From positions 1-28,855 of IMG/VR virus record IMGVR_UViG_3300025769_014524: DNA of 28,855 bases. One strand, given 5' to 3'. A model generated the notes under the pieces. That model was not told the DNA's origin. It saw nothing but the letters and a program-made list of their open reading frames with translations, and did not search any database. Both the position numbers and the translations under genes were made by a program. This document shows positions 13,531 through 28,855 of the stretch, one piece after another (the first letter of the stretch is position 1; every line of letters begins with the position of its first letter). The DNA comes from a virus.

Positions 13531-14166
13531 ATGAAACTTCCTTCGCATAACCAATATCGTAAAGAATGGGCCGAGAGTAAAGGTGTAAAAGAGCTAAAAA
13601 TAATAACACCGCATTTGACAGATACTCGAGTATGTTTAGATATTGGAGCTCATATAGGAGCAACAGCAATTAAATATTCTAAAATATTTGATACAGTATA
13701 CTCCTTTGAACCAATTTCATACCTATATGATCTATTAGAAGAAAACACAAAGGATTTTAAAAATATTATTCCATTGAATGTAGCAGTATCAAATACAGAT
13801 GGTAAAGTAAAAATATACGAAAATAGTAAAAATTCAGAATCTAATGTAGTTGTTCATGATGATACATTGTCTTTAATCAAAAGTAGGTGGGGCGAAGGTA
13901 AGAGATTTGGAGTAGTAGAACCTAAAGAAGTTATTAGCAAAGCTATAGATAGCTATGAATTCAGTGATGTAGATTTTATTAAAATTGATGTTGAAAGATA
14001 CACTGCTCCAGTTTTAGAAGGTATGATAGAAACATTAAAGAATAATTCTCCGATATTGCAAATTGAAGCAGATAATGTAATAGATTCGAAAATAACAAAT
14101 ATCTTATCTCGGCTGGGCTTTAAGAAATTTGAAAAAACAAATATAGATTGGTTTTATAAAAAATGA
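13531..14166 (+). CDS. FkbM-family methyltransferase 1
   Basis: 211 aa. SAM loop LDIGAHIGATA (36-46), acidic FEP (59-61), and the family motif DFIKIDVE (148-155). The usual Gly after IDVE is replaced (ERYTAPVLEGM), which is atypical but the rest is intact. FkbM enzymes O-methylate hydroxyls, often on sugars. It follows the SqdB-like gene by 4 bp and overlaps the next glycosyltransferase start (ATGA). Confidence 0.85.
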   Translation: MKLPSHNQYRKEWAESKGVKELKIITPHLTDTRVCLDIGAHIGATAIKYSKIFDTVYSFEPISYLYDLLEENTKDFKNIIPLNVAVSNTDGKVKIYENSKNSESNVVVHDDTLSLIKSRWGEGKRFGVVEPKEVISKAIDSYEFSDVDFIKIDVERYTAPVLEGMIETLKNNSPILQIEADNVIDSKITNILSRLGFKKFEKTNIDWFYKK

Positions 14167-14963
14167 AAAATTTAATTTATCAGTGCTGGGATGGCGACGA
14201 AAGATCTGGTAATCTAGCCGGTATCGAAGCTATGGAAAAGTACGCAGATAAGATTGGCGCTGAATATGTATACGAGCATAATCCAAAATGGAGAACTGAT
14301 CTAGGTTCTTATACAGCTAACTACGGAAAGTTTAAGCCAGTATATGCATACGAAGATTATGATAATGTCATGTATGCCGACTGTGATCTAGTTCCTCGAG
14401 ATGATTGCGGAGAAAATATATTTGAAAGCATTAAGGATTATGAAATTGGTATTTGCGAAGAAGTAAACGCACCACTAGCTCGAAAAAGACACACTATCGG
14501 TGGTGGTATCAATAATGCAAATGATGAAAAGTGGGTTGGTCTTGTTGAGAAAAAGTGGCCAGTTACAATGCCTCGCACAACATCTGGACTACCAAGGGTA
14601 TACAATTCTGGCATGATTCTATGGTCAAAGGATGGTATGAAAAAAGCAAGAGAAAAATTCTATCCTTTTGAAAAATATGTCAAATTTACAAAAGCATTCA
14701 ATTTGCCGTCATTTTATACATGTGATCAACCATATATTCATGCAATGCTCGAAGTTTGCGAGTTTGATTGGAAAACTATGCCATACAAATGGAATAGTTC
14801 TGTTCACTACGATCCGGGCGTAAAATCTCAACCCCGGCCAGTCATTGATTTAAGAAAAGAAAATTGTAACTTTGTCCACATACAACTGAATGGTGCTGAC
14901 AATTTTGATAAAGAAAAAATTAATCGAATTGTAAATCTTCCAGTTAATGAGTGGAATTTATGA
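14163..14963 (+). CDS. DxD glycosyltransferase, paralogue 2
   Basis: 266 aa. Starts MKNLIYQCWDGD and has DCD (73-75, in YADCDLVP) and YNSGMILW. The N-terminus and motif order match the other MKN-type transferases here, though sequence divergence is high. A longer central insertion (about residues 100-135, with GGGIN) distinguishes it. GT-A fold by motif; sugar unknown. Confidence 0.78.
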   Translation: MKNLIYQCWDGDERSGNLAGIEAMEKYADKIGAEYVYEHNPKWRTDLGSYTANYGKFKPVYAYEDYDNVMYADCDLVPRDDCGENIFESIKDYEIGICEEVNAPLARKRHTIGGGINNANDEKWVGLVEKKWPVTMPRTTSGLPRVYNSGMILWSKDGMKKAREKFYPFEKYVKFTKAFNLPSFYTCDQPYIHAMLEVCEFDWKTMPYKWNSSVHYDPGVKSQPRPVIDLRKENCNFVHIQLNGADNFDKEKINRIVNLPVNEWNL

Positions 14964-15586
14964 GCAGGAAAGTTTACGTAAGTCTAGGTTCGAACAAAGG
15001 TGGTGAGTTTCTTACTCTTCAGAAATCCAAAATTTATTCTGAAGATTTTGTTATATACGCTTTTGAACCGGAAGAAAGATGCTTTAAACATATCGAAAAA
15101 GTTCAAGAACAAGTTCCAAACATTACTCATATTAAAGCATGTGCAGGAACATATGATGGTATTGTTTCTTTTAATGTTGGAAAAAATACTTTATCTGGTA
15201 GCGTAAGAAAAGATAAAAAAAGAGGCCTCACAAATGATACGATAGACATGGAATCCATTGATATTTGTAAGTGGCTCAATGATAATATCAATGAAGATGA
15301 TTACGTTATCCTAACAATGGATATCGAAGGGAGCGAATATGACATTCTTCCTATTATGCTTAAAAACAAGTGTAGTAACTTAATCAATAAAATATATATT
15401 GAATTTCATGGCGAGAAAATGAAAGAAGATGTGAGTGAACTTGAAAAGAGCTTAAAAGAAAATTTACATGAAAAGTGGGGTACAAATTTTTTCGATAGAT
15501 ATGTTGAAGGAAATATGGGATTGTTCGGTAAAGTATACGAAGATTTAGATCCAAACATGTTTAATAATATCGGCGATTTAAACTAA
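14960..15586 (+). CDS. FkbM-family methyltransferase 2
   Basis: 208 aa from ATG 14960, which overlaps the previous stop (ATGA); an in-frame GTG at 14951 is less likely. Motifs: SLGSNKGGE (8-16), AFEPE (34-38), MDIEGSEYDIL (120-130), and IYIEFHGEKM downstream. The SAM loop begins SLGSNKG, a divergent form. Flanked by glycosyltransferases on both sides. Confidence 0.82.
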   Translation: MSRKVYVSLGSNKGGEFLTLQKSKIYSEDFVIYAFEPEERCFKHIEKVQEQVPNITHIKACAGTYDGIVSFNVGKNTLSGSVRKDKKRGLTNDTIDMESIDICKWLNDNINEDDYVILTMDIEGSEYDILPIMLKNKCSNLINKIYIEFHGEKMKEDVSELEKSLKENLHEKWGTNFFDRYVEGNMGLFGKVYEDLDPNMFNNIGDLN

Positions 15587-16236
15587 TGAAAAATATTATC
15601 TTACAACATTGGAATGGTCGACTTCAACCATGGGCTAAAACATGCAAATATAGCATTGAAGAATATGCTCGAAGAGTTGGAGCAGATTACGAATTGCTTC
15701 AAGGATTTCCTATGGGTGATTGGTTTCCTAATACTAACAGCAAACCCTGGCTTGTAATTCAAAAAATGTTTGTATTGAATGAAAAATATGATGAATATGA
15801 TACAGTCTTAATATTAGATATGGACATGCTTTTTACTGAAAATTTTGATAATATCTTTAATTATGAAGGTGTTGGTAGATTACATAAAGTAGGAATGAAA
15901 GAAGTATCTGGAAGTAAGAATGGTCGTAAATGGCCTAAGCTCTATACTCAAGGTGAGCCAATGTTCTTTGGTAATTGTCTTAAGTTTACTCGAGACGAGC
16001 GTATAGCGCTGCGATCTGCCCTTGATAGCACAGTAATACATAATAGTATGTCAAGTGATGGTTTACCACCAAATGATGAGATCATTATGCACTATTGTAT
16101 TGTAAAAAGTAAAGCTCTAGAAAACAAAAATAAATTACAAATTCCTCACGATAGATTTTGCGATTTACCAGAGGAAGCGCACCCCGAAGCAACGCTTATT
16201 CATTATTGTGGCCGAAGAAAGAATCAAATAAAATGA
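15586..16236 (+). CDS. DxD glycosyltransferase, paralogue 3
   Basis: 216 aa. Starts MKNIILQHWNG; DMD at 78-80 in LILDMDMLF. The start overlaps the preceding stop (TAATG). It shares EEYARRVGADYELL with the equivalent region of paralogue 4 (SRYAESLGAEYKLL), so the two adjacent genes look like a tandem duplication. C-terminal LIHYCG may be the His often found in GT8-type enzymes. Confidence 0.78.
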   Translation: MKNIILQHWNGRLQPWAKTCKYSIEEYARRVGADYELLQGFPMGDWFPNTNSKPWLVIQKMFVLNEKYDEYDTVLILDMDMLFTENFDNIFNYEGVGRLHKVGMKEVSGSKNGRKWPKLYTQGEPMFFGNCLKFTRDERIALRSALDSTVIHNSMSSDGLPPNDEIIMHYCIVKSKALENKNKLQIPHDRFCDLPEEAHPEATLIHYCGRRKNQIK

Positions 16237-16934
16237 AAAATATTATATTGCAGCACTTTCATCCATTTAGACCAACAGTCATTCAAGAAATGAAAGAGCG
16301 TAATGGTTTACCTTTTATCGTAGAAAAAAGTGTAAAGAATATTAGTCGATATGCAGAATCTCTTGGTGCCGAATATAAACTTTTAGACGGTGAACCGTTC
16401 CAAAGAGGTCTACGTGGTCAATGCCAAAAGTGCGCTGGCATTAACGAAGAGTATGATGAATATGATACTGTTGTTGTTCTTGACACAGATAAATTTATTA
16501 CAACTTCTTGTACTGAAAATGTATTTGAAGCAGAAGGAATTGCATCATTTGATGATGTACATCGTTTAACTCAGTTGCCGGCTTTTATTCGTGAATTCCC
16601 GAGACTAGGAAATGAAGATTACCCATTGTGGTCCGGTGCAATTTATGTAATGCCTCGAGAGTTTAGGCAACTAATGCGTAAGCAAATCAATCCAGCTATG
16701 CGTAAAGTCTTTGAGCAGATTAGTCCTAGACCATACGTAGATGAAGGAATGTTTCATGTTATGTGTGTTAAAGCAAAGTTTAAATTGGATACATATCTAG
16801 ACGAAAAATGGGATTATAGCAGTTATCTACCGAATCTCGAAAGCGCTAATATGATTCACATTAGGCATAAACCCAAGTCAAGAGAAGAAACATATGTTGA
16901 TTTGGTAGATGCAGGAATTATAGAAGACGTATAA
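16233..16934 (+). CDS. DxD glycosyltransferase, paralogue 4
   Basis: 233 aa from ATG 16233 (ATGA overlap with paralogue 3); the frame is open further upstream to 16158 but that would lie within the previous gene. Starts MKNIILQHFHP; DTD at 84-86 (VVLDTDKF) and YPLWSGAIYVMP. C-terminal NMIHIRHK supplies the late His. Closest in the window to paralogue 3. Confidence 0.78.
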   Translation: MKNIILQHFHPFRPTVIQEMKERNGLPFIVEKSVKNISRYAESLGAEYKLLDGEPFQRGLRGQCQKCAGINEEYDEYDTVVVLDTDKFITTSCTENVFEAEGIASFDDVHRLTQLPAFIREFPRLGNEDYPLWSGAIYVMPREFRQLMRKQINPAMRKVFEQISPRPYVDEGMFHVMCVKAKFKLDTYLDEKWDYSSYLPNLESANMIHIRHKPKSREETYVDLVDAGIIEDV

Positions 16935-17620
16935 TGGCTGAAAACATGGATCGCAAGCTTGATGTTGTCCTCAAGCAACTGAATAAAAATAATTATGAAA
17001 TAACAAATGTATACGATATCGGTGCTAATGATGGCCGTTGGAAATTCGCGCATTCCAATTTGTTTCCACCTCATTCGCATTTTTATATGTTTGAAGCAAA
17101 TCCTCAAATCCAATTACCAAGTACAGAAAATCAAACATTTTTTAACGCTGTTCTTTCATATGAAGATAACAAAATAGTTACTTACTATACCGCTAATCCC
17201 GGAAAAGAAAATACTGGAAATGGATATTATAAAGAATTAACACCAAACTATAGTCAAGGCAATTCAATTGAACTAAAAACAAAAACACTTGACAGTTTAG
17301 TAAAAGAGAATAATTTACCACTACCACAATTTATCAAGATGGACACGCAAGGATCAGAATTAGATATTCTACGCGGTGGTGAAGAAACATTTAAAAATGC
17401 TTATGGTGTAATATGTGAAGTTGGGATTATGCAATACAATGAAGGTGCACCATTATTCAGTGACTATATTAGCACATTTTATGAATACGGGTTTGTGCCT
17501 ACTGGAATTCACCATATCGCAATGAGAAAGAATATCGTCAACCAAATGGATGTTGTTTTTATGCGGAAAGATATTAGTATGGAAATAAATAAACACCATG
17601 AACGGTACTTAGGATTTTAA
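16934..17620 (+). CDS. FkbM-family methyltransferase 3
   Basis: 228 aa, TAATG-coupled to the gene before. VYDIGANDGRW (26-36), MFEAN (52-56), FIKMDTQGSELDILRGG (133-149). This is the most canonical FkbM of the three: the MDTQGSE form is the common family signature. It ends directly before the first GT25 gene with no spacer. Confidence 0.87.
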   Translation: MAENMDRKLDVVLKQLNKNNYEITNVYDIGANDGRWKFAHSNLFPPHSHFYMFEANPQIQLPSTENQTFFNAVLSYEDNKIVTYYTANPGKENTGNGYYKELTPNYSQGNSIELKTKTLDSLVKENNLPLPQFIKMDTQGSELDILRGGEETFKNAYGVICEVGIMQYNEGAPLFSDYISTFYEYGFVPTGIHHIAMRKNIVNQMDVVFMRKDISMEINKHHERYLGF

Positions 17621-18316
17621 ATGATTAACGCTTATGTTATAAGAATGAAAGATAACCAACAATCTAGTCGTGCTGCTGATCGATTGATTCTTTCGATGCC
17701 ACCGATTATTAAGCCTGTAATATTTGACGCAGTCGTGCCTGATCAAGTAGATCGGTTAATGAAGAAGTATAAATTAAAATGGACTTGGCCGTGGGAAGGA
17801 CAACAATTTGATTTTAAATCTGGCTTAATCATGACTGCATATCCCACAGCAGAGCCCAAAAAGAGAATAGGCTGTTTTCTTTCTCACTATATGCTATGGG
17901 AAAGATGTGTAAAGCACGATGAACACATGATCATTAATGAACATGATGCACTTTATTTTTCAAATGAGAATTTACCTATCGAAAAATTTGAAGAATCTCG
18001 CTACAATATCATAGGCCTAAATACTCCTATACGTGCTACTCGTTTAGCGAGTGGCTACGATAGAGTAGTTCAAGAATCAACAAATGATATAGTGAGAGCA
18101 CCAGAAATTGATAATCATAATATCCCACAAGGTATTGCTGGTAATTCTAGCTATTATATTAAACCAGAAGGTGCACAACATATGATTAATTTGACAAAAG
18201 AACATGGTTGTTGGCCAAATGATGCCTTAATGTGTAGGCAGTTAGTTCCTAAATTAGGACAAACAAAACATTATTACACCGGAATCCAAGGAATAGAAAG
18301 TACTACAACGAGATGA
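17621..18316 (+). CDS. GT25-family glycosyltransferase 1
   Basis: 231 aa. GT25 (LPS-type galactosyl/glucosyltransferase) signatures: GCFLSHYMLWER (84-95) and IINEHDAL (104-111). The C-terminal region SYYIKPEGAQHMI matches the family pattern in which the chain reaches a second Rossmann-like part. Such enzymes add hexoses to lipooligosaccharide or proteins; here the acceptor is unknown. Confidence 0.82.
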   Translation: MINAYVIRMKDNQQSSRAADRLILSMPPIIKPVIFDAVVPDQVDRLMKKYKLKWTWPWEGQQFDFKSGLIMTAYPTAEPKKRIGCFLSHYMLWERCVKHDEHMIINEHDALYFSNENLPIEKFEESRYNIIGLNTPIRATRLASGYDRVVQESTNDIVRAPEIDNHNIPQGIAGNSSYYIKPEGAQHMINLTKEHGCWPNDALMCRQLVPKLGQTKHYYTGIQGIESTTTR

Positions 18317-18963
18317 ATTCAGAAGCTTTTGTAATTACAATTATGGATAACGATAAGTCAGTACAAGCGGCAACGCGGTGCATGAAATCTGCAGAGAAAT
18401 ACGGATTACATGTAGAACATCACGCTGCCACAACTCCAAAGGATAATCCTCATTTAATTTTACATACAAAGGGTATTCAACCTTCTTTCTTTCATGAAAA
18501 GTATTCTCGTCCAGAAAATTGTATGTCAGCATTTTTATCACATCATGCTTTATGGGAAAGATCTGTAAAACTCAATAAAAATATTGTTATCTTTGAACAT
18601 GATGCTATTGTGACTGGTGAAGTTCCAGTGAATTCACCGTTTAAGGGTGTCATGACATTTTCTAAACCTTCATATGGAAAATTTAACACTCCAATGAAAC
18701 TCGGAGTTGATGGACTAATCCAAAAGAAATATTTTGGAGGTGCTCATGGATATATTGTCAATCCATACGGAGCAAAAGAATTAATCAAAAAGGCAAAAAC
18801 TCACGGTGGTCCTACTGATATCTTTATGTGCCTCGACAATTTTCCATGGCTTCAGGAATACTATCCATGGGCATGTGAAGCAAACGATAGTTTTACAACC
18901 ATTCAAAATGAAACGGGATGCTTAGCAAAGCATAATTATAATGAGCAATACAAAATTATTTAA
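18313..18963 (+). CDS. GT25-family glycosyltransferase 2
   Basis: 216 aa, ATGA overlap with GT25-1. SAFLSHHALWERS (72-84), IFEHDAIV (93-100) and GYIVNPYGAKELI correspond to the same blocks in its neighbour, so this pair is probably a tandem duplication. The sequences have diverged enough for different specificities. Confidence 0.8.
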   Translation: MNSEAFVITIMDNDKSVQAATRCMKSAEKYGLHVEHHAATTPKDNPHLILHTKGIQPSFFHEKYSRPENCMSAFLSHHALWERSVKLNKNIVIFEHDAIVTGEVPVNSPFKGVMTFSKPSYGKFNTPMKLGVDGLIQKKYFGGAHGYIVNPYGAKELIKKAKTHGGPTDIFMCLDNFPWLQEYYPWACEANDSFTTIQNETGCLAKHNYNEQYKII

Positions 18964-19597
18964 TAGAGCATTTCTTACTGGTTGTGATCATACTCAAGAG
19001 TGGATGCTCCCTTGGTTTTTCGAAAACTATAAGAAATATAACACCGCGCCTCTTATCTTTGCAGACTTCGGAGTCAATGATCTTGCTAGTGTTAAACCAC
19101 ATGTACATGCAATTATTACTATGACAAAAGTAAAAGAAAAAGGCTGGTTCAAAAAGCCAAAGTCAATGATGCACTGCCCTGCAAAGAAAACTGTTTGGCT
19201 TGACACTGATTGCGAAGTTAAAGGCAATATAGAAGATATATTTGATAAGCTTGTCGAAGGTAGATTAGGCATGGTTGAAGACAGACCGTGGACTCAAAGA
19301 AGAGGCGGTGGAGATATATGGTATAATTCAGGAGTAGTTGGCTTTATTGGCAAGCCTCACATCCTTTACAAATGGGTAAAAGAAATTGAGTCTAATCCAG
19401 ATGTCGGAGATCAAGAAACGCTGCAGAGCATGCTCGATCCTCTCGGAAGATTGACATATATAGAACCATTACCAAATGAGTATAATTGGCTAAGACTTCA
19501 AATTGAGAATGATGATCAGCCAGCAACAAATGCAAAAATTATTCATTGGACAGGAAAAAAAGGAAAAGATCGTATACGGAGCATGATGAATGGCTAG
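18941..19597 (+). CDS. Glycosyltransferase with DTD motif (GT8-like)
   Basis: 218 aa, 23-nt overlap with GT25-2. WLDTDCEV (86-93) is the DxD motif; WYNSGVVGF downstream, and IIHWTG near the C-terminus contains the late metal-binding His usual in GT8 enzymes. It lacks the MKNxI start of the four paralogues, so it is a separate lineage. Acceptor unknown. Confidence 0.78.
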   Translation: MSNTKLFNRAFLTGCDHTQEWMLPWFFENYKKYNTAPLIFADFGVNDLASVKPHVHAIITMTKVKEKGWFKKPKSMMHCPAKKTVWLDTDCEVKGNIEDIFDKLVEGRLGMVEDRPWTQRRGGGDIWYNSGVVGFIGKPHILYKWVKEIESNPDVGDQETLQSMLDPLGRLTYIEPLPNEYNWLRLQIENDDQPATNAKIIHWTGKKGKDRIRSMMNG

Positions 19598-20288
19598 AGT
19601 AACGCATGTTATTGGAAATGGTGATTGGGCCGGTTTGTTTCAAAGAGAACCTCGTAAAGGATTGAAAATTGCTTGTAATCAAACACCGTTTGACATTCCA
19701 GATAAATGGTGTACAGCAATTGTTGATTTTAAATTTATGGCTGCAATGACAAGGAAAGAAATTAGTGTTCCGGGTCAGTGGCTTCTTGGCTTTCGTCCAA
19801 AAAAATGGATGGAAGATCACCCAACGTTTTATATGACGCATGCCCAGCAAGTAAAAGAATTCTATACAGCATTACCGAAATATGCTGTTCCGCCAGATGG
19901 AAATATAGGTTTGGGATACACTAATTTTAATTGCGGCCATATGGCTGTGCATTATTGCGCGAATAAATTAAAAGCCGATGAAGTCCATATGTATGGATTT
20001 GACTCTATTTTTGATTTTAACTTACGTAGTTTTTCAGATCTTGTTCTTACTTCGGATAGAGGAAACACAAACACAAATAGGTTAGCTCATTTCTGGAGAC
20101 CAATATGGACAGAAATGTGGAAAGAATTTCCAAACACTAAGTTTATTTTACACCATATCCATGACGCGTTTAAAGTTGAACACGGTGATAACGTTGAAGC
20201 TCGAGTGTATGAAAAAAAACCAGTAATCAAGCCGAAGCCAATTTTAACACCTGACGGTCGACCGAATATGAATGTCTCGGAAGCATAA
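19590..20288 (+). CDS. GT42/DUF115-like putative transferase
   Basis: 232 aa. The N-terminal HVIGNGDWAG (6-15) with KIACNQ soon after, and the central VHMYGFDSIFD, resemble the GNG and YGFD-type motifs of GT42 sialyltransferases and related DUF115 enzymes. Also notable is NRLAHFWRPIW. The C-terminus is proline/lysine-rich (KKPVIKPKPILTPDGRP). Family placement is tentative. It is the last gene of the cassette; a promoter follows within 25 bp. Confidence 0.55.
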   Translation: MARVTHVIGNGDWAGLFQREPRKGLKIACNQTPFDIPDKWCTAIVDFKFMAAMTRKEISVPGQWLLGFRPKKWMEDHPTFYMTHAQQVKEFYTALPKYAVPPDGNIGLGYTNFNCGHMAVHYCANKLKADEVHMYGFDSIFDFNLRSFSDLVLTSDRGNTNTNRLAHFWRPIWTEMWKEFPNTKFILHHIHDAFKVEHGDNVEARVYEKKPVIKPKPILTPDGRPNMNVSEA

Positions 20289-26712: not shown

Positions 26713-28158
26713 TTATGAACCGGATAGCCAAGGATCGCTATAGTCCAAAGCAGAAGGTGTAGCCGAAAGAATTGGTTGTGTGTTTGAAGAACTAGTGCTT
26801 ACGCTCGAAGGAGCGCTGACAATAACATTTGGTGCGCTTTTAGATTGAGATATGGCTGCAGTATCTTCTTTAATTATCGCTGCACGATTTGCAGATTCTC
26901 CACTCTTTGTCATCTTCGCTGTTTTGGCTTCTTTAGTAGCATCAGCTTCGGTCTTCAACTGACCTTCTTCAAATTTAAATGATCGAAGACCGGATGCTAA
27001 CTTTCCGGTGCCAGGGATAATGCTGTCATCAAGGAATGTTGCAATACCTTCGATTAGTGAATTCACTGCTCTCTTCAAGATCTCGAGAGGAGAATAAACA
27101 ATATTTTTGATAATGTCACTGAAGCTAAATGACTGAAGAGCTTCGGCCGACTCATCAAATCCTAGCTTTTTCATTACCCACGCTGCAGCATCTTTTAATA
27201 AGTCAAGAGGTGTACCAACGATAGAATTAAAGAATCCCTCGACTGCTCCTTTTAGACCACCGATAATACCTTCTTCTTCGAATCCAGCAATAGCACCTTT
27301 TACTGTATCAAATGCTGTCATAATGAGAGTAAGAGGGAAGAATAGTCTACCAATTACTTTTCCGATTCCTCCTAGTACTTTCATAAATTTACTACCTTCA
27401 TCAAAGATTGAGAAGGCGGTTTTGATCATGTCTCCGGCTTTACCCGCGAGTTCCATCACTGCAGTAAATGGTTTCGTGATTGCACCGATGATTCTTGACA
27501 TAACACTAGGACCTTCGGTTGCTTGGAATATTCCTTTGAATGGTTTTACGATATCATCGATGACACCTTCAAATGGAAACATAAACGGTTTCATAATTGT
27601 TGAGAAGAGCTTGCCGATTCTTGATTCTGGTCCAGCTTGAAACAAATTTTTGATAGGCTGAATCATATCATCGAGAATCTTAATTGAGTCTTCAATTGCA
27701 GCTGCAGTCTTTGACCTCAATAATCGAAATACATCGATAATCGGATCGATAACGCGGTTGATGATATTAGTGACATTTATAATTAGTCTACCAACTGCAC
27801 CCTTAATAAGATCGAATAAAGCATCAAATTTTAAAAGATTAGCAATCTTTTTAATCGAGTCAAGAATACCACCAATAAATCCTCCGGCAAACGCGGCTAA
27901 TCCTGCAAGCAATAATCCTAGATTACCGGTACCGGCTTTTGTATCTCCTGCTGGTGCAGGAGCCGGTGGAGGCGGAGCGGTGTCTTTCTTTTCACGCATC
28001 ATCTCGAGCAGGTCGAGCCTTTGCATCATAAGAGCATTAGTTAGATCTCCTAACATATTATTCATATTCAGAACAGATGAATTAAGCGAAGTCAACTGTG
28101 CAGTATTCTTTTGCCCATTACTCTTTAACTGTTCTACTACGATTTCTAAACTTGCCAT
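26713..28158 (-). CDS. Tape-measure-like tail protein
   Basis: 481 aa. N-terminal helical/coiled-coil region (1-55), a Pro/Ala-rich linker APPPPAPAP (61-69), a Gly/Ala hydrophobic stretch at 80-99 (LGLLLAGLAAFAGGFIGGIL), then a long series of amphipathic and hydrophobic helices (for example FPLTLIMTAFDTVKGAIAGF), and a low-complexity Ser-rich C-terminus. This composition is typical of tail tape-measure proteins (the T4 counterpart would be gp29). The ATG overlaps the stop of the preceding -1-frame ORF (TAATG). Its position directly after a gp26/chaperone-like pair matches the lambda G-GT-H order. No enzymatic domain is visible. Confidence 0.65.
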   Translation of the reverse strand: MASLEIVVEQLKSNGQKNTAQLTSLNSSVLNMNNMLGDLTNALMMQRLDLLEMMREKKDTAPPPPAPAPAGDTKAGTGNLGLLLAGLAAFAGGFIGGILDSIKKIANLLKFDALFDLIKGAVGRLIINVTNIINRVIDPIIDVFRLLRSKTAAAIEDSIKILDDMIQPIKNLFQAGPESRIGKLFSTIMKPFMFPFEGVIDDIVKPFKGIFQATEGPSVMSRIIGAITKPFTAVMELAGKAGDMIKTAFSIFDEGSKFMKVLGGIGKVIGRLFFPLTLIMTAFDTVKGAIAGFEEEGIIGGLKGAVEGFFNSIVGTPLDLLKDAAAWVMKKLGFDESAEALQSFSFSDIIKNIVYSPLEILKRAVNSLIEGIATFLDDSIIPGTGKLASGLRSFKFEEGQLKTEADATKEAKTAKMTKSGESANRAAIIKEDTAAISQSKSAPNVIVSAPSSVSTSSSNTQPILSATPSALDYSDPWLSGS

Positions 28159-28337
28159 TAGTGTTGCCTTTGTTCTTGACGTACTCTTTCTTCTTTTAAG
28201 TGGTTAATCAATAAAGAGATATAGATCTCTCTTTCCCATGGAATCATTTCCTCTATCTCAGTCAGTCCCCAATGCCAGTGGGTCATTAAATTGAAGTTTG
28301 TTTGGTAATAAGCTTCAAGACTCTCGTGAGATAGAGC
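28158..28337 (-). CDS. -1-frame extension of the gp26-family protein (T-like domain)
   Basis: 59 codons before TAA, in the -1 frame relative to the gp26-family gene and opening just upstream of that gene's last codons. Sequence features: LSHESLEAYYQTNFNLMTHW and then a WGLTEIEEMIPWEREIYISL helix and a charged tail. Helical segments of the type HWxLxEIExMPWER are found at the C-termini of tail assembly chaperone fusions. The only internal ATG (MTHW) has no ribosome binding site. I therefore read it as expressed by -1 frameshifting on T TTT TTA (28349-28343 on this strand), not as a separate gene. Confidence 0.65.
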   Translation of the reverse strand, partial: ALSHESLEAYYQTNFNLMTHWHWGLTEIEEMIPWEREIYISLLINHLKEERVRQEQRQH

Positions 28338-28855
28338 TACGATAAAAAATTTGCCACTCCTTCAATTGTTACATCGTTATCATGTTCACAGCTTTTGCAT
28401 TTAAATTTAACATTATGTGAAAGCTTAGGAATCTTTTCAACAAATTCTCTAATCTTTTGAAACTGAGCTGTACTCATCGAATCGATAAACTCTTGTATTT
28501 CTTCTTTTGACGTTTCCTTTAGTACAATTCTTTCGTCTTCGGTATTGACTGCTTTTAAACAACTTCGAATCAATGAAAATGCTTGTTCTGCGTTTGGTTC
28601 ATCACCGCTGTGTGTACCAGCATCGATGATATCATAGAATGTTGGCCAATCGAGGTCAAGCGAAATTGTGTCGGTCAATTCAACGTTCTTTTTCACCTTT
28701 GGAATATCAATTGCAATCTTATCGAGATTGATTGAGATCTCATTTGCAACCGAACACTCACTACACTTTAATCCTACTTGAGCAGATTCACCTACGCTTT
28801 TTGATCTCAATTGCAAAAACATATATTCAATATCAAAAGATGTTAGGTTATTGAC
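28337..28855 (-). CDS. 26: gp26-family baseplate/tail protein, partial
   Basis: 172 codons visible in zero frame; the start lies beyond the window edge, since LTSFDIEYMFLQLRSKSVGE is a conserved inner part of the gp26 (T4_baseplate) family. Two CxxC knuckles, CSEC and CKSC, form a zinc-ribbon-like unit near the N-terminal third and the C-terminus. The middle is helical and acidic. In T4, gp26 acts in baseplate hub assembly. The frame ends VANFLS then TAG, with the slippery heptamer two codons before the stop. Confidence 0.78.
   Translation of the reverse strand, partial: VNNLTSFDIEYMFLQLRSKSVGESAQVGLKCSECSVANEISINLDKIAIDIPKVKKNVELTDTISLDLDWPTFYDIIDAGTHSGDEPNAEQAFSLIRSCLKAVNTEDERIVLKETSKEEIQEFIDSMSTAQFQKIREFVEKIPKLSHNVKFKCKSCEHDNDVTIEGVANFLS

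Follow-up and report, generated by a model that had tools for sequence, protein, structure and literature searches.

A gp26–gp51 tail assembly chaperone locus with a very probable programmed −1 frameshift in a T4-like myophage

At one end of the viral DNA analyzed here, a gene of the gp26 family stops just after a run of six T residues, and an open reading frame displaced by −1 carries on past its stop codon to the start of a tape-measure-like gene. The question raised by this locus is whether it holds two genes, one gene broken by an error, or one gene read in two frames. The DNA, called the window below, comprises 28,855 nt of IMGVR_UViG_3300025769_014524, and the locus lies on its minus strand (Table 1). 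Frameshifting of the −1 kind in tail assembly chaperones is already known from other phages; in lambda, one gene, flanked by those for the tail tube and the tape measure, gives rise to a short protein (G) and its −1 frameshift-extended form (GT) (PMC5009743). The present locus has the same arrangement of a short frame with a −1 extension and the same gene neighborhood. Judged from its sequence, it can with high confidence be considered the tail assembly chaperone locus of a T4-like myophage, with a programmed −1 frameshift of the G/GT (TAC-N/TAC-NC) type.

The gp26-family ORF matched PF12322 with 151 bits (cut-off 24.5) in a profile search; its 5′ end lies beyond the window, which cuts the gene, and in close relatives the full-length gp26 has 236–238 aa. 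The zero frame ends in GTG GCA AAT TTT TTA TCG TAG (minus strand around the shift site, GAAGGAGTGGCAAATTTTTTATCGTAG), and the phased heptamer and the frames are as given in the preliminary description of this DNA. From 28361 onward, the −1 frame has no stop until its TAA (28160–28158), which overlaps the ATG (28158) of the next ORF, an overlap that had also been noted; the extension had been counted as 59 codons and in fact has 61 past the heptamer (IVALSHESLEAYYQTNFNLMTHWHWGLTEIEEMIPWEREIYISLLINHLKEERVRQEQRQH). The overlapping heptamer A AAT TTT, proposed earlier as a weaker slip site, is present but was rejected in that role, as it is not conserved and many relatives read GAT or AGT there. 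The tape-measure profile match is stronger in the close relative L007 (E=7.3e-11), where the genes run from head closure through DNA end protector, tail tube, gp26 and extension to tape measure. Tail tube genes are found upstream of gp26 in several cultured phages too; the position of this gene is known from relatives, and in the window phage it would fall outside the window. The order of tail tube, gp26/gp51 and tape measure is the canonical one for tail chaperones. In pelagi-, methylo- and rhizobiophages, the gp51 frame is separated from the next large gene by an extra ORF of about 110–142 aa (L059 1119–1448, L060 1090–1509, L066 1614–1946, L069 1586–2014).

Table 1. Features of the candidate frameshift locus, in window coordinates
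Feature	Position	Strand	Evidence or remark
gp26-family gene, zero frame; putative short product TAC-N	28337-28855	-	PF12322 T4_baseplate E=3.7e-44; phrog_150 baseplate hub E=1.7e-42
Shine-Dalgarno-like AAGGAG, 7 nt upstream of heptamer	28357-28362	-	
Slippery heptamer T TTT TTA	28343-28349	-	in phase in 143/144 loci
Zero-frame stop TAG, one codon past heptamer	28337-28339	-	
−1 frame extension, 61 codons + TAA, gp51 C-terminal domain; would give long product TAC-NC	28158-28343	-	phrog_634 'baseplate hub assembly catalyst' E=6.8e-26 (profile search)
Stem 5′ arm CTCTATCTCA, 6 nt after heptamer	28327-28336	-	
Stem 3′ arm TGAGATAGAG	28251-28260	-	
Alternative (class B) 3′ arm position	28230-28240	-	in window, helix broken by A-A mismatch
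Tape-measure-like gene, 481 aa	26713-28158	-	several PHROG tape-measure profiles, best E=1.2e-6

TTTTTTA is not rare in the window (15 copies observed, 21 expected), and hence the case rests on the conservation of the heptamer. A first scan of viral contigs, with gp26 as query, identified 50 loci in which both parts are present; in all 50 the second part was in the −1 frame and a run of T6–T8, in the phase T|TTT|TTN, stood shortly before the gp26 stop, at identities ranging between 21% and 100%. In a second scan the extension served as query, and 80 loci were obtained, all with the −1 frame and 79 with the T run. The same arrangement was found in 13 cultured phages of several families and in one Desulfovibrio phage; the cultured carriers are phages of Prochlorococcus, Synechococcus, Pelagibacter, Methylophilales, Sinorhizobium, Agrobacterium, Rhizobium, Vibrio, Aeromonas and Stenotrophomonas. 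Altogether, the in-phase run and the frame difference are kept in 143 of 144 loci (TTTTTTC in 56, TTTTTTT in 53, TTTTTTA in 32 and TTTTTTG in 2), for which no overall p-value is given because the loci are not independent. The codon holding the first T is GAT, AGT, AAT, TCT, GCT or ACT and ends in T without exception, although T-ending codons make up only 50–76% of the Asn, Asp and Ser codons in these genes; the next codon is TTT in every case, though TTT accounts for 73% of Phe codons. In the sole exception, L095, the run is broken at about 1491–1500 (GTGTTTTC, against GTTTTTTC in its near relative L094; wider surroundings AAAGTGTTTTCGTATCGCC and AAAGTTTTTTCGTATCGCC, respectively), by either a single substitution or a sequencing error. 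Two Ackermannviridae-type phages, phiMAM1 and D506, are left out of this tally; they keep a −1 extension after gp26 (L070 1725–1928 and L071 1710–1910) and have, instead of T6, the shorter runs in CAG GTT TTC ATC TGA and TCA CTT TTC AAG TAA.

The extension itself behaves as a protein-coding domain. Its frame is without stops, while the other frames hold 3–8, and homologs were present in 547 phage records. The comparison of synonymous with non-synonymous change, suggested earlier as a check, gave dN values far below dS in most pairs (0.042 against 0.484 for L007 and 0.007 against 0.166 for L006), the nearest pair being too close to tell; on these rates, the extension is under purifying selection. 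It had been described as a T-like domain; its identity is corrected to the gp51 C-terminal domain (phrog_634), and it also matches phrog_150 (the gp26 family) at that profile's C-terminal end (E=1.5e-6). Its predicted structure consists of three helices, and a fold search of the PDB with this model gave no match; PDB sequence searches with gp26 and with the extension returned only weak chance or coiled-coil matches. The model of gp26 (pLDDT 83.7) resembles gp26-type 'baseplate hub' proteins among viral models, with E-values down to 7e-18. In the PDB, the HK97 tail assembly chaperone 2ob9 ranks first by probability (0.77 and 0.66; E=0.85 for the former and about 0.9 overall, which is not significant), so that an HK97-chaperone-like fold of gp26 is only suggested by the prediction.

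The naming of T4-like tail assembly chaperone genes is reportedly the subject of a 2022 article in Virology by Vladimirov, Gautam and Davidson. T4 gp26 and gp51 appear in PMC3004832 as hub assembly chaperones, and a passage of PMC10885494, citing Vladimirov et al. 2022, states that some T4-like phages have a short gene together with a fused long gene. In T4, gene 26 (208 aa) and gene 51 (249 aa) are separate and lie on opposite strands, and both proteins belong to PF12322. On phrog_150 (282 positions), T4 gp51 aligns over 13–280 and T4 gp26 just over 14–235. On a profile built from 41 fused products (299 positions), T4 gp26 spans 12–238 and ends near the shift point, while T4 gp51 spans 76–282 and crosses it. 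T4 gene 26 ends in GAG TTC TTT GAG TTA CTA TAA, without a slippery run. From these alignment extents and the lack of a slippery run, T4 appears to encode a short and a long product separately, T4 gp26 corresponding to the former and T4 gp51 to the latter, whereas in the window phage and the majority of other relatives both appear to come from one gene with a frameshift site.

Could gp51 nevertheless be a gene of its own in the window phage, started independently by coupled re-initiation after gp26 has stopped? In cyanophage, Stenotrophomonas, Rhizobium and other records, gp51 is annotated as its own CDS, in some of them starting at the gp26 stop, and in cyanophages the gp51 C-terminal domain (phrog_634) already appears as a separate gene. 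At the head of the window's extension, however, there is no ATG, GTG or TTG, in line with the earlier remark that it lacks a start with a ribosome binding site, and the first in-frame ATG comes 53 nt past the gp26 stop, well inside the extension; nor is any start codon conserved across relatives, which elsewhere have TTG, GTG or nothing near. Free gp51 would moreover leave the conserved in-phase T run unexplained, and T4 gp51 corresponds to the fusion and not to the free domain. Two separate genes are therefore considered highly unlikely. It was reported that cyanophage gp51 matches only the C-terminal part of T4 gp51 and is about 20% as long (Sullivan et al. 2010; PMC3037559); a frameshift domain, as opposed to a shortened gene, would explain this observation. 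Hundreds of phage records probably annotate two genes where one frameshifted gene is the likelier reading.

Two candidate RNA signals flank the heptamer. Upstream lies a Shine-Dalgarno (SD)-like element, and among 69 non-redundant loci the mean anti-SD pairing energy in this region was −6.5 kcal/mol, as compared with −3.2 kcal/mol in control windows. The pairing also exceeds that of synonymous recodings (z −0.61 against +0.13 in controls, p=4e-8), which indicates that the element is not only a conserved protein motif. Downstream, the RNA of the window folds more stably than shuffled sequences (z=−3.45; a longer stretch gave z=−2.0 with the same core), the core being a pairing of CUCUAUCUCA with UGAGAUAGAG over 10 bp around a loop of 66 nt. 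Against synonymous recodings, the mean folding z was −1.95, and −0.51 in gp26 control windows (Mann-Whitney p=8e-7, 28 loci less than 80% identical); some loci (L019, L020, L034, L038, L049 and L066) had no folding excess. An Rfam search of the region gave no match. In other lineages, perfect or near-perfect stems of 10–14 bp with loops of 33–35 nt were observed at nearly the same place past the heptamer (L045 3531–3591, L056 about 910–970).

The stem designated class A is common to 18 distinct loci. Possession of the core motifs was the criterion for picking them; part of the constancy of the core pairs stems from that choice, and the outer pairs provide the fair test. Here, six loci carry G14-C99 in place of C14-G99, an exchange that alters the encoded amino acid on either side of the stem (Glu to Asp on the 3′ side), and the 16 cells without pairing are confined to the end columns 13/100 and 23/90. 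Relatives from the first scan, which were not picked by motif, were used for synonymous sites: at the codons wholly within the stem (2, 3, 4, 28, 29 and 30, numbered as in the dN/dS comparison), none of 356 comparisons differed, against 33% outside the stem, and inclusion of the end codons raises the in-stem figure to 8%. The downstream stem is thus frozen at synonymous sites, with compensatory change. Cyanophage and pelagiphage gp26–gp51 loci share the frame relation, T run, gene order and proteins of the window; they differ in that, in many related loci, the partner of the 5′ arm lies about 20 nt further downstream. In 46 other loci (class B), the shared 5′ arm has Pro-Trp-Glu-Arg codons at that distance as its partner, and some of the pairing is forced by protein motifs. 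Two wobble-wobble pairs covary (C-G in 25 and U-A in 15 of 46; U-A in 23 and C-G in 13 of 46), a signal that may partly reflect shared third-position G+C content, since sliding the alignment by −3 columns still left 19 double-change cells against 28. The class B stem was rejected for the window itself on account of the A-A mismatch and of the lack of covariation in class A. Taken together, a three-part control of the chaperone ratio in T4-like phages outside the T4 subgroup is somewhat favored, in which the SD-like element, the T-run heptamer and a long-range stem would act together, the 5′ arm being fixed 6–7 nt downstream and its 3′ partner occupying, depending on lineage, either of two positions that lie about 20 nt from each other; this would represent turnover of RNA structure under a nearly constant protein. 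A long-range stem with two alternative partners seems not to have been described in the literature searched, in which Vladimirov et al. 2022 was represented by its title and two citing papers, and the SD-like AAGGAG likewise seems unreported as part of a frameshift signal.

Another way to the same fusion would be transcriptional slippage, in which RNA polymerase would insert an additional U while copying the T run and ribosomes would then read through in the −1 frame, yielding a product identical to that of frameshifting. T8 runs, a length permitting slippage, occur in roughly one in three relatives from the two scans, but the window and most relatives carry T6 only, and T6 is generally too short for transcriptional slippage. 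Codon phase is irrelevant to slippage, whereas the run keeps the one phase T|TTT|TTN throughout, and slippage leaves the translation-type arrangement of SD, spacer and stem unexplained; this explanation is likewise highly unlikely. A single-base sequencing or assembly error in a continuous gene, named earlier as the main alternative and favored by the homopolymeric nature of the T run, is refuted by the identical frame break in more than 140 loci from many phage groups, cultured phage genomes included.

The programmed −1 frameshift is very probably real and functional, and the earlier proposal of a G/GT-like device ahead of the tape-measure gene is supported by the conserved run, the frame difference, the purifying selection on the extension, the lack of a conserved separate start and the gene order. 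The shift would proceed as follows. Most ribosomes would complete gp26, the short chaperone; at AAU UUU UUA, a minority would slip back by one base, re-pairing on UUU UUU, and read beyond the zero-frame stop to produce a gp26–gp51 fusion of about 297 aa, the long chaperone. The SD-like element and the downstream stem, both above background in the comparisons above, would aid the shift. By analogy with lambda G and GT, the two forms may coat the tape measure protein and bring in subunits of the tail tube. The slip site is GGGAAAG in lambda and T TTT TTA in the window phage, which also differs in having the long-range downstream stem. Another known system is that of the Vandenendeviridae (phage Adele), where the tail assembly chaperone −1 frameshift has a conserved poly-T slip site (PMC12846349) and the extension likewise precedes the tape measure gene, though the motif there is GTTTTT and the phage families are different. 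In a passage citing Vladimirov et al. 2022, the same paper mentions poly-T slip sites as known in T4-like chaperone genes (PMC12846349).

The locus offers a testable candidate for a long-range RNA stimulator. Frameshifting in most relatives and two genes in T4 would also form a natural series in which the replacement of a frameshift by separate genes can be studied. Elsewhere in the window (13531–20288, plus strand) lie ten tandem ORFs of 211–266 aa, comprising three FkbM methyltransferases, two GT25 and two weak GT8 glycosyltransferases and three ORFs without a Pfam match, with two diverged paralog pairs among the ten; from these matches, it looks like a sugar-decorating cassette.
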